DNA of 64,000 nt, taken from the NCBI GenBank assembly GCA_020152595.1, contig JAIGNY010003759.1, forward strand, positions 57,501-121,500, in the 5' to 3' direction. The position numbers and the translations under genes are program-made. Numbering within the stretch: position 1 is the stretch's first letter; each line of letters begins with the position of its first letter. Of this stretch, positions 13,702 to 20,634 are shown piece after piece. The notes below the pieces were generated by a model. That model had not been told where the DNA came from. It saw only the letters and a list, made by a program, of their open reading frames with translations, and did not search any database. This stretch comes from Chiridota heheva (lineage: Eukaryota > Echinodermata > Holothuroidea > Apodida > Chiridotidae).

Positions 13702-13930
13702 ATGGCCTCCACGACTCTACAGTTACCTCTGTTCTTTAATACACGATGGTTATCGCTAAACATCTTTCTCATAATTATCTTGGTAGTACTCTCAAAATCA
13801 TTCGTAACAGAAAGCACTCCTACTTGGCATTGTAGAAAAGCATCAAATACAATACGAGCTTTTTGTTCAGGGTGTTATGCAGGAGGTTTGGCAAAGAGGC
13901 AATCAACAGATATCCATCCTGCTCTTCAAG
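13702..13930 (+). CDS. Insulin-like peptide precursor, exon 1 (signal peptide and B chain)
   Basis: First coding exon of a secreted insulin/IGF/relaxin-superfamily precursor, joined to 20402-20634 to give 153 residues. ATG 13702 follows directly on an acceptor (CTCTTATTTTTCAG), as in insulin genes with a 5' UTR intron; I chose it over an upstream in-frame ATG at 13663 because that one lies across the acceptor. Residues 17-31 form the hydrophobic signal core (SLNIFLIIILVVLS). Residues 44-58 (CRKASNTIRAFCSGC) are the B chain: Cys44 and Cys55 would be the canonical pair, but spacing is 10 instead of 11, the usual Gly after the first Cys is Arg, and Cys58 is extra. Lys65-Arg66 is a dibasic processing site. 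The donor AAG|GTAATT (13931) splits a Gly codon in phase 1, the conserved insulin C-peptide intron phase. Identification rests mainly on exon 2; receptor and function are unknown. Confidence 0.82.
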
Positions 13931-14339
13931 GTAATTTTCAACCTTCATTCCCATACACATATGATAGATCTCTCTATGCCCATGTTACCTTTCCGTACAA
14001 GATCACGATCAGAAATAAAGTTGATATATGCCGTTCAGGAGATAATTTCCCACATTGCAGCGTTCGATACTCAAAGGTGTCGCAGTCTACAAAGTTAACA
14101 ATGTAAGATTTTAAACGTATTTGTACGTATAGAGGTAACAACAGCTAAATTGCTTTAAAATAGTACACACCATCATAGAAGCAAACCCTTTCATTAAATT
14201 AATTAAACATTGATCATTATCCAGTGTGTTTAGATATAACGCATTAATTTGCATATATTATTCAAATTTTGTAATGTAGTACGCCGAAGTACGGGCGAGC
14301 TTGTTATTTTCTTTTGTAAATCCTTTTTCTAAAATGACT

Positions 14340-14520
14340 ATTATAATTCCTGGAAGTGGTGCTACAAATTCTTACCAAAAACTTTTGAACCTTTGATGTT
14401 TCTTGAATAAAATTCTAGCAGAAATAGACTTTTCCATTATTTTCAGGGTCTAAGATTTAAAAATGTAAAAATTACATGATGATTTTGATGTGTCCAAGCC
14501 ATATATCACAAAATTCACTG
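14340..14520. repeat. Dispersed repeat shared with 41885-42010
   Basis: GATGTTTCTTGAATAAAATT, AGCAGAAATAGACTTTT, ATTATTTTCAG and CTAAGATTTA occur here in the same order as similar strings at 41900-42000. Unclassified intronic repeat copy. Confidence 0.5.
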
Positions 14521-15059
14521 AAAAGTTTTCATATCTTTTATCTTCATTTATCGTATAAGTTTTGCATAGGGTTATTGTTAATTTTACCAGATGATTTTAA
14601 AGAAATAAATTCTAAAAATCATGACATTCTTATTACACCCGTATCATCTTCTAAGTCATAAAAGTCATAAAAACAACTTTAAGTTCACAGATATCTTTAG
14701 ATGTTTTTGTAGAATATTTCTTAGAAATAAATTTCTGAAAGCTATACCTTTCAAATTAAAATTAACATTTAATTTTTTCGGATTTATTTGTAATGGAAAT
14801 AATTTATATAAAATATCCGAAACCTTTCTTAAGACTTTAAATCAAAGTTGAAAGTTATTAAGATGTTCAAATTCATATAATTAGCAGAAAAAGTCCCATT
14901 GACAGTTAACCACAAACTGACAGTTTTATAAGTGGTAATACAAGTTTACGAAAATATGAAACATCTAAGCTTGACATCTATTGATCTGCATATCAGATTA
15001 ATGGACAGAAACTAAAGTCAAACTAAGTTTAATAGCAAATGAAAATTCCCTTTCTTCAC

Positions 15060-16930
15060 TCTAAATTCAACCAGCAGAGTTAAAAAATAATCACTGAATT
15101 TGAGGAAATTATTATTGTTTTAATCTTGTCCTTTATTACCTCTATACATCAAACATTCATTCAAGTCTTAAAAGATTTGCATACTATGATCATATGAAAT
15201 GCCATTAAGCGGAAGATATTTTTGACTGAGAGTTTTGCACAACTCAGAGAATTGAACTCTGATAATTTACATGTCATTTTATAACAAATACGACGAGGAA
15301 TCCTAATGCAAAATGTGTTTTTATTCGTCCTAAGCTTTTTTGTGTATTTCAGCTTATTTCTAAATTTTTAGAGTAGAGCTTTGGTTGGTCATATGTGGCT
15401 TTGATATGATATATGATATTTGATATGTATATATGATGGCTTTTACATGATATGATATATGATATATACATATGACATATGAATTACAAAGCATGTCTCG
15501 TGAATGATAACAATTGTACCCACGAACCCAATATATGCAGAAAAATCTAGTCCTGATTCTGTTTCGTCCTAACTGCCTAAGATCTTTTATGTATTTCAGC
15601 TTACTTCTAAATTCTTAGCGTAAAGCTAGGGTTGGTCATATGTAGATTAGATATGATATGATCGGATATGTTTACATGACATATGCATTACAATTCTAAG
15701 TATCTCCTGTTCTAAGCATGTCTTGTCAATGATAAAAATTACACCCAATATACTGATATAACCAGAAAGATGTTATTTATAACGTTCTGCTTTCTGACAG
15801 CATGATTCAATCATTAAAAATTGCCCATGTTGTAAAAGCAAGTGTTAACCTCTATAATTGACGTTTGTTGGAATGAATACGTATTCATCATTGATGGTGA
15901 ATAACGTACATAAATTAACGAATCAAATTAAATTAAATTTCACATTCACTCATCCGTTTTTCATCTAACAGAGCTAGAGGCAAACAATAATCGCTAAATT
16001 GGCAGAAATCATTATGGTTCTAATATTGTACTTTCATACCACTCTACATCAAATCATTAATACAAATCTTGAAAACATTCGCATACTATGATGTGCTGTT
16101 ACGCGGAGGACAATTTTGACTGAGAAATTACATCTTTTTCTAATGACAAATAAGACGATGAATCCGAGTTCCTAAAATATGTTTAATTCGTCCTAATATC
16201 ATGTATGTATTTCAGCTTACTATCTAGATGTTTAGAGTAGATAAAGGGCTGTTCAAATGTGTCTTTATATGATACGATATATATATATATATATATATAT
16301 ATATGGGTATATATATATATATATATATATATATATATATATATATATATATATATATATATATATATATATATATATATATATATATATATATATATAT
16401 ATATATATATATATATATGTATATATATATATATATATATATATATATATATATATATATATATATATATATATATATATATATATATATATATATATAT
16501 ATATGTATATATATATATATATATATATATATATATATATATATATATATATATATATATATACATAAATATATATATATATATATATATATATATATAT
16601 ATATATATATATATATATATAATATGTATATATATACATAAATATATATATATATATATATATATATATATATATATATATATATATATATATATATATA
16701 TATATATATATATATATATATATATATATATTTATATATATACATATATATATATATATATATATATATTTATATATATATATATATATATATATATATA
16801 TATATATATATATATATATATATATATATATATATATATATATATATATATATATTTATATATACTAAGCATCTCCGCATGTCTTGTGAATTAATGACAA
16901 AAATAACCGACCAGAGATTTGTTATAATTT
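15060..16930. repeat. Three-copy tandem repeat; third copy carries AT expansion
   Basis: Landmarks ATTCGTCCTAA, GTATTTCAGCTTA, CTAAAT..TTAGAG/TTAGCG, GGTCATATG and AAGCATGTCTTGTGAATGATAA recur at about 15330-15510, 15565-15740 and 16187-16900. The first and third copies are also alike upstream (about 15060-15330 and 15960-16190). Between GGTCATATG-like and AAGCAT landmarks the copies hold ATATG-rich spacers of very different length: about 100, about 45 and about 600 bases. Confidence 0.8.
16277..16864. repeat. (AT)n array, ~590 bp
   Basis: Nearly pure AT dinucleotide with rare interruptions (GGG at 16305, ATACATAAATAT near 16562 and 16635, TTTATA near 16731). The many Tyr-Ile 'proteins' over it on both strands are artefacts. 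Assembled length is likely to be unreliable. Confidence 0.98.
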
Positions 16931-17157
16931 CCACTTTTCTCCACCAAAACGTTAATATAACAGTAAAAACCACCCTTGCTTCCCTACCCTTTTAACCCAT
17001 ATTTTACCATTATATGACAACCAATAGCATACATTAATAACACTTTCAGTTTTGTCAACCATTTCTAATATTTTATATGGTGGGTAGACTATGGTTTACC
17101 ACCTTTTCCTACGTTGATCGATTTCCCTAGAAAACTACCTTTTCCCACATCATGGTG

Positions 17158-19185: not shown

Positions 19186-19189
19186 TCCT

Positions 19190-19955
19190 CATGTGCAGTT
19201 AACTGGTTGGTTCAGTGGGCAAGCATGTTCATCTTATATGAAAGAGGACTTTAAAAGAAACAAAATGGTGAAAAAAACATTCAAAAATCTTATTCTGTCA
19301 AAGGATTAGTTCAGTGGTCAAGCATGTTTATCTTATATGAAAGAGGACTTCAAAAGAAACACTATGGTGAAGAAAGCATTCAAAAATCGTATTCTGTTAA
19401 AGGATTAGTTCAGTGGTCAAACATGTTTATCTTAGATGAAACAGGATTTCAAAATAAACAAAATGGTGAAGAAAGCATTCAAAACTCTTATTCCGTTAAG
19501 GAAATATTTAACTTTAAAGTTTGGTATCATTTGTGTAGAAACGACTAAAGTCAGACTAATTGTGATGACATAGCCTCAGATTCCTCAAAGTCTTTACGTA
19601 TTCTATCATATTTTGTCCTGCGATTTTGTGGCTGAAAAACCATGGGATATGTTAATAAAATAATGAAACAGAATCTAGAAAGGGTATTTGTAATATACCA
19701 CATAAAGAAAATTTGAGGAAAAATAATTTAAATAGTGAAAAAATTGAATAAACTTTTTTTGAAATACATAAAGATTTTAAGGATTCTGAGGTTGTGACAT
19801 CACAACTAGTCTGATTTCAGTCGTTTCTACAGAAATTAGTGGAACAGATTTCAAAATTATTGTTATTCCTACAAGGTGCTATATATTCTTGTTTATTTGT
19901 GTAAATTCGACGGACATCGGGCTAGTTGTGACATCACATTCTCAGTCCTTTAACA
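19190..19955. mobile_element. Foldback / inverted-repeat element, copy A
   Basis: A 105-base module beginning GTTCAGTGG(T/G)CAAGCATGTT is repeated three times (19206-19500). It is followed by inverted arms: TGTAGAAACGACT...CAGACTAATTGTGATG...CTCAGATTCCT (19530-19592) matches the reverse complement of 19785-19850. A further partial arm (CTAGTTGTGACATCAC) is at about 19923-19938. The family recurs at 25262-26245. It has no transposase frame, so it is non-autonomous; exact ends and target duplication could not be fixed. Confidence 0.7.
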
Positions 19956-20028
19956 TCTAATTGTACTTTTTTACAATTTGATCTACTGTGGTTTTATTTA
20001 TGTCAGGAAAGTGCTAAAACATAATCTG

Positions 20029-20089
20029 GCAAAGTAACTATCATGTACAGCAAAGTAACGATCATGTACAGCAAAGTAACTATCATGTA
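20029..20089. repeat. 21-bp x 3 tandem repeat
   Basis: Three copies of AGCAAAGTAACTATCATGTAC with one or two substitutions, about 310 bases before the second insulin-like exon. Confidence 0.9.
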
Positions 20090-20401
20090 CCATCTTAAGA
20101 TACTTTGAAAGGTATCTCTACTTAGTGAACAATCATTTGCATTGATTATCAATACAAATAAAACTTATAAAAGTGAGTGTGTAAGGGCATTCTTCCACAA
20201 ACTGATAGTAGATTTTCTGCATTAGATATCTTCAGTCAATTTTGTAACAACCTTAAAATCCAATATCGTATAAACGAAACAAGATAGTGAAAAAAATGTC
20301 TTAATAGTCATGTCATGTACCCTTGTCCTCTAAAACACAAGGCAGACATGTCTGACCACTAAAAAAAGTCCTTTATTAATACGTATCATTTTTCTCTACA
20401 G

Positions 20402-20634
20402 GGCCTTTTGTACATAAGTCCTTCGCCTCTAGTTTCCTGAAAGGGAGAACACACTCCATGCACAATCCAAACTCTAGAACATTTTTCAATCGACAACGAA
20501 AGAGTAGAGGTGGCTTCGTCGACGAGTGCTGCAAACGAAATTGTTCCAACCGAGAAATGATGCTCTACTGTTGTGAAGAACAACAGAGATACTGGGCTGA
20601 TTTCTTGAGTATTGATTTTGCTGATGGTTCATGA
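20402..20634 (+). CDS. Insulin-like peptide precursor, exon 2 (C peptide, A chain, tail)
   Basis: Terminal coding exon (residues 77-153) of the insulin-like precursor whose exon 1 is 13702-13930. After the acceptor TTTTTCTCTACAG the phase-1 frame stays open to TGA at 20632. The C peptide ends with the basic site RQRKSR (residues 107-112), suited to furin/prohormone convertase. The A chain GGFVDECCKRNCSNREMMLY (113-132) plus CC (133-134) has Cys119, 120, 124 and 133 in the invariant C-C-x3-C-x8-C spacing, and GxVDECC is IGF/insulin-like. Cys134, directly after the last canonical Cys, is extra and could pair with Cys58 of the B chain, making four disulfides. A 19-residue tail (135-153, acidic end DFADGS) resembles an IGF-type extension. 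A minus-strand frame (20386-20583) is its shadow. The family is confident; hormone subtype is not. Confidence 0.9.

Follow-up and report, generated by a model that had tools for sequence, protein, structure and literature searches.

Does the 64,000-nucleotide stretch of Chiridota heheva DNA presented above (contig JAIGNY010003759.1, positions 57,501 to 121,500, forward strand; hereafter, the window) encode an insulin-like peptide with eight cysteines and, if so, is this peptide of a new kind? The initial annotation had proposed such a gene, divided between two short exons, and had suggested that its product could be a new peptide subtype. As described below, the two exons are predicted to be one gene that encodes a peptide of the insulin superfamily, and the gene fits octinsulin, a hormone type known from sea cucumbers and related animals, as one more member of it. 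We consider it very probable that the echinoderm in question, in all likelihood a sea cucumber, has a single octinsulin gene and that this is the gene in the window.

Two exons and their predicted product

Coding exon 1 (13702-13930, plus strand) contains the leader, the B chain with Cys44, Cys55 and an extra Cys58, a KR site and the start of the C peptide, and ends in phase 1 at the donor boundary ...CAA G|GTAATT. Coding exon 2 (20402-20634, plus strand) begins directly downstream of the acceptor ...TTTTTCTCTACAG| and contains the remainder of the C peptide, an RQRKSR site, the A chain and a TGA stop codon (20632-20634). The phase-1 intron within the C peptide (13931-20401, plus strand) is 6471 nucleotides long and reads GTAATT...CTCTACAG; a long AT microsatellite is located inside it, at 16277-16864. 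When spliced, the exons form a 462-nucleotide open frame without internal stop or frame shift, which corresponds to a precursor of 153 amino acids. Both exons and their stop-free joining in phase 1 had thus been placed correctly by the initial annotation. It had described the splice sites as good. The GTAATT donor is present; the acceptor of exon 2 is fair without standing out, as 70 of the 1372 plus-strand YAG sites of the window, itself included, equal or beat it in pyrimidine content.

A strong 3′ splice site that the initial annotation does not list, TTCTTTCTCTCTTATTTTTCAG, whose AG occupies positions 13700-13701 of the plus strand, abuts the ATG of exon 1; by the same measure 3 of the 1372 YAG sites, itself included, equal or beat it. 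The gene is therefore likely to have an intron in its 5′ untranslated region (5′-UTR) and a further upstream exon. A splice acceptor just 5′ of the ATG is shared by both IGF-type genes of the same genome (see below), where a pyrimidine-rich AG is seen by eye 17 and 11 nucleotides upstream, so a 5′-UTR intron is likely common to these genes. Vertebrate insulin genes likewise have a 5′-UTR intron. Downstream of the stop codon, the first polyadenylation-signal-like words are the putative signals ATTAAA (21043) and AATAAA (21049), which together span 21043-21054 of the plus strand.

The leader of the precursor has a strongly hydrophobic core, and a signal peptide of about residues 1-38, with a putative cut site at its end, is predicted. 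Eight cysteines (residues 44, 55, 58, 119, 120, 124, 133 and 134) are divided between the B chain (three) and the A chain (five). The B-chain cysteine region, C-x10-C-x2-C, spans the codons of Cys44 to Cys58 (13831-13875, plus strand), with CR where the insulin-type CG would be expected. The A-chain region (20527-20574, plus strand) consists of CC-x3-C-x8-C and the adjoining extra Cys134, so that its complete layout is CC-x3-C-x8-CC; 19 residues follow the last cysteine. The KR prohormone-convertase site occupies residues 65-66 (13894-13899, plus strand), and the polybasic RQRKSR cleavage site occupies residues 107-112 (20491-20508, plus strand). The order of signal peptide, B chain, KR, RQRKSR and A chain, the unusual B-chain spacing with an extra cysteine after two intervening residues, and the numbering of Cys58 and Cys134 are all as first annotated, the last by translation of the joined frame.

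The spliced product matches the Pfam Insulin model (PF00049) with 24.8 bits (cut-off 23, E 4.6e-5), in agreement with the proposed assignment of the A chain to the insulin superfamily; the match spans residues 105-133 only, i.e., the A-chain part, and the B chain is outside of it. Comparison of the precursor with the PDB yielded 18 matches at E<=10; IGF-I (E 0.0015) and the A chain of DILP1 (E 0.0036) are among the nearest. We also searched the genome from which the window (C3298:57501-121500 in these searches) is derived, which comprises 1,100,099,931 bases in 3744 contigs. The Insulin model retrieved seven matches at E<=10, four of them over the cut-off, and the A-chain exon is among these four with a genome-wide E of 0.0135. 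No second CC-x3-C-x8-CC was present among the five A-chain matches within these seven, and exon 1 had one match in the genome at E<=0.001. In the six frames of the window, CC-x3-C-x8-C occurs once, compared with a mean of 0.12 per copy in 60 first-order Markov copies of the window, 7 of which had at least one motif. Both strands of the window were also scanned for an ATG followed by a hydrophobic stretch, C-x(9-12)-C and a phase-1 donor; no other B-chain-like exon was found, all four rows retrieved being nested ATGs of exon 1.

Relation to octinsulin and alternative assignments

Octinsulin was described by Veenstra (PMC8286064) as an insulin-related peptide of all ambulacrarians (hemichordates and echinoderms) with eight cysteines, four predicted disulfides and KR sites, whose gene has a phase-1 intron as its only coding intron. 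According to the same description, it is single copy in echinoderms, is most highly expressed in nervous tissue and, in a number of species, has IGF and dilp7 genes as its neighbours; this linkage is reported for sea urchins and sea cucumbers (Echinozoa) and for a hemichordate, and is lost in sea stars. A possible relative in Xenoturbella has been mentioned as well (PMC11521371). The distribution fits the initial pointing of the annotation to echinoderms and hemichordates. The window gene shares with octinsulin the eight cysteines (their division into three and five is stated for AjILPP, see below), a KR convertase site at residues 65-66 (the second site being RQRKSR), a coding sequence that in the predicted gene model is interrupted once, by a phase-1 intron within the C peptide, the single copy, as judged by the search of its own genome, and linkage to an IGF-type gene. 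Compared by description, the two show no difference, with a linkage distance that is large here (189 kilobases, kb).

A second point of comparison is AjILPP, from the sea cucumber Apostichopus japonicus (GenBank MF401996 as printed; PMC6586643), described as a precursor of 156 amino acids with a 35-residue signal peptide. Its B chain has three cysteines with C-x10-C, its A chain has five with CC-x3-C-x8-C, and an extra atypical disulfide was proposed for it. The window precursor (153 amino acids) is thus similar in length and has the same division of cysteines and the same spacings, including the short C-x10-C of the B chain; in both, the A chain does not end in a cysteine. The two differ in the site preceding the A chain, which is described as dibasic in AjILPP (PMC6586643) and is RQRKSR here.

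The IGF-type gene linked to the octinsulin candidate is located 189 kb downstream of it, on the same contig and the same strand (C3298:266783-270140; B exon at 266783, A exon at 270051), and has a long basic tail. A second IGF-type gene lies on the minus strand of another contig (C3261:80112-78906), its basic tail being part of a 544-residue open frame. As in the window gene, the leader and the B chain of these paralogs are on one exon and the A chain is on another. Unlike the window peptide, they have a six-cysteine insulin core with CG retained and C-x11-C, and long basic C-terminal tails with further cysteines. The long charged tail after a six-cysteine core by which ambulacrarian IGFs are recognized is absent from the window precursor. 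The presence of two IGF genes beside a peptide with eight cysteines is consistent with a non-crinoid echinoderm. Linkage to dilp7 is indirect: a dilp7-like A-chain exon (C3261:217560-217763), 137 kb from the second IGF-type gene, encodes CC-x5-C-x8-C after a polybasic RRRRTKR, with two residues more in the first loop than CC-x3-C-x8-C. Searching both strands of 136 kb of C3261 (including 5000 N) with C[GA]x(8-11)C returned 18 rows, none of which was convincing by eye as a dilp7 B-chain exon, and an A-chain-like scan of the same 136 kb returned one unconvincing row. The dilp7-like call is made from the A chain. Elsewhere in the genome, a weak Insulin match (C1449:1168856-1168936, minus strand; E 2.4, under the cut-off) falls in a short open frame, of 43 residues, that encodes CC-x3-C-x8-C, and is possibly the A chain of a gonad-stimulating peptide (RGP/GSS), or a chance occurrence.

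Several points weigh against the identification as octinsulin. Orthology is suggested by described features and linkage rather than by alignment, and the comparison of the cysteines with those of octinsulin is one of their number. The gene model itself is drawn from genomic sequence. The dilp7-like exon is on a different contig and lacks a recognizable B-chain partner. For the octinsulin candidate and the IGF-type gene, it is linkage and not adjacency that is demonstrated, and the distance between the two is large. As the synteny is lost in sea stars (PMC8286064), linkage is to be taken as support and not as proof.

Could the gene instead encode a previously undescribed subtype of insulin-superfamily peptide, as the initial annotation had suggested? 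The B-chain spacing is odd, CR replaces CG, there is an extra pair of cysteines, and the sequence is clearly unlike both IGF-type paralogs. However, three cysteines in the B chain and five in the A chain, C-x10-C, a proposed extra disulfide and a single phase-1 intron are already in print for AjILPP or octinsulin, in descriptions that are silent on CR in place of CG. Because these descriptions carry the same oddities, we rejected the suggestion, and we regard a new subtype as very unlikely. Still less credible, in our estimate, is an origin from the multinsulin or dilp7 type by acquisition of two cysteines. Some multinsulins do have eight cysteines (PMC8286064), but they are reported in that source for Asterozoa, and a separate dilp7-like A chain is present on C3261. 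Moreover, the extra phase-2 intron that separates signal peptide and B chain in dilp7 and multinsulin genes is absent here: the B chain starts soon after the leader, and a single exon encodes both. The dilp7 definition also takes in the F domain.

An equally slight chance is given by us to the view that the exons are open frames arisen by chance or remnants of a pseudogene, and not parts of one working gene. They are separated by 6.5 kb of DNA that includes a microsatellite, have been seen as genomic DNA only, and the second is preceded by an ordinary acceptor (70/1372). Yet the whole genome contains just seven Insulin matches at E<=10, the exon-1 scan yields nothing else on both strands of the window, and splice phases, leader and cleavage sites are concordant, with no stop or frame shift. 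On account of the AT microsatellites, a molluscan eight-cysteine insulin was also considered. In molluscan insulins, the extra cysteines are located elsewhere, before the CC of the A chain; because of these positions, and because the genome contains IGF genes with long basic tails of the ambulacrarian type, this candidate was set aside.

Predicted hormone and candidate receptors

The most likely product of the octinsulin candidate is a neuro- or entero-endocrine hormone that is secreted and consists of two chains. The prepropeptide would enter the secretory pathway, where its A and B chains would pair through the canonical bonds B44-A120, B55-A133 and A119-A124, and a fourth bond, B58-A134, would be added. 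Convertases would cut out the C peptide to leave the two-chain hormone, which may be released from neuroendocrine or gut endocrine cells. The fourth interchain disulfide put forward in the initial annotation is plausible by analogy, as the cysteine layout resembles that of INS-6 from C. elegans (‘probable insulin-like peptide beta-type 5’), for which structures have been solved (PDB 2kji, 8tk9). INS-6 has the same CC-x3-C-x8-CC in its A chain and a third B-chain cysteine shortly after the second one. It differs in the B-chain spacing, which is C-x11-C-x3-C in INS-6 and C-x10-C-x2-C here, and in that it retains CG. The 18 matches that the precursor has in the PDB at E<=10 do not include INS-6; there is no close sequence relation, and the cysteine layout alone agrees. 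It appears unlikely to us that octinsulin and INS-6 inherited their four-disulfide layout from a bilaterian ancestor and did not acquire it by convergence. If they did, the original gene triplet would have held an eight-cysteine insulin beside IGF and dilp7, and the fourth bond would have disappeared from the gonadulins, which have six cysteines.

The least certain step is reception. The hormone may signal through a leucine-rich-repeat G-protein-coupled receptor (GPCR) of the LGR3/relaxin-receptor type and not through an insulin receptor kinase; an LGR3-type receptor is what Veenstra infers for octinsulin (PMC8286064). Searching the genome with the seven-transmembrane (7TM) region of relaxin receptor returned 44 matches at E<=0.001, mostly 28-42% identical, of which 35 are stop-free and some represent two exons of the same gene; examples are C3134:780008-780436, C1244:235596-236024, C359:150233-150682 and C3311:197474-197890. 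When two of these matches were run against the PDB, RXFP1 came first for both. The relaxin-receptor-like exon C3134:780008-780436 is 39% identical to the 7TM region of RXFP1 and matches it with 158.9 bits versus 126.2 for FSHR, while the other exon prefers RXFP1 less clearly (115.8 versus 106). Some of the 44 matches may be other rhodopsin-type GPCRs. As an observation in its own right, the matches may reflect an expansion of relaxin-receptor/GRL101-like GPCRs, in contrast to PMC8286064, according to which a species has a single ortholog of every irp-type LGR.

The receptor part of the octinsulin account is weakened in two ways. With so many LGR-like 7TM matches, the presence of such receptors cannot by itself single out the one for octinsulin. 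In addition, it is the starfish peptides RGP1 and RGP2 that act on RXFP/LGR3 (PMC11863921); since activation of this receptor was shown for RGPs and not for octinsulin, the proposed step loses strength.

Significance and surroundings of the gene

The present analysis adds a clean octinsulin gene model, with a likely 5′-UTR intron, for one additional genome. The globins of this genome point weakly to a sea cucumber: of three globin exons retrieved, two were compared with the PDB, and the best match of both is 1hlb (36.7 and 35.7 bits), which like 1hlm is a haemoglobin of sea cucumbers, with cytoglobin 2 to 3 bits lower (34.6 and 33.1). A search of the genome for COX1 gave no match. C. heheva is an apodid and belongs to an early-branching lineage of sea cucumbers. 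Its octinsulin would help to establish when the IGF-octinsulin-dilp7 cluster became loosened. The question of the octinsulin receptor is sharpened by the action of starfish RGP on RXFP/LGR3 (PMC11863921). In the main text of the 2022 C. heheva genome paper (PMC8913654), the word ‘insulin’ is absent.

Scanning 8 of the 64 listed open frames of the window against Pfam gave nothing over the cut-off, and neither Rfam (gathering threshold) nor tRNA scans of the window gave any match. A 108-residue open frame at 5744-6070 (plus strand), protein-like in composition by eye and without a Pfam match over the cut-off, may belong to an unrelated gene, as one of its exons, on the upstream side of octinsulin. 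Minisatellites are present at 29506-30876, 45272-46806, 62518-63163, 37073-37578 and 1683-1950, with units of 39, 28, 23/44, 15 and 16 bases, respectively. Beside them, the window contains long AT microsatellites, at 56604-57516 and 61920-62427 as well as at 16277-16864.

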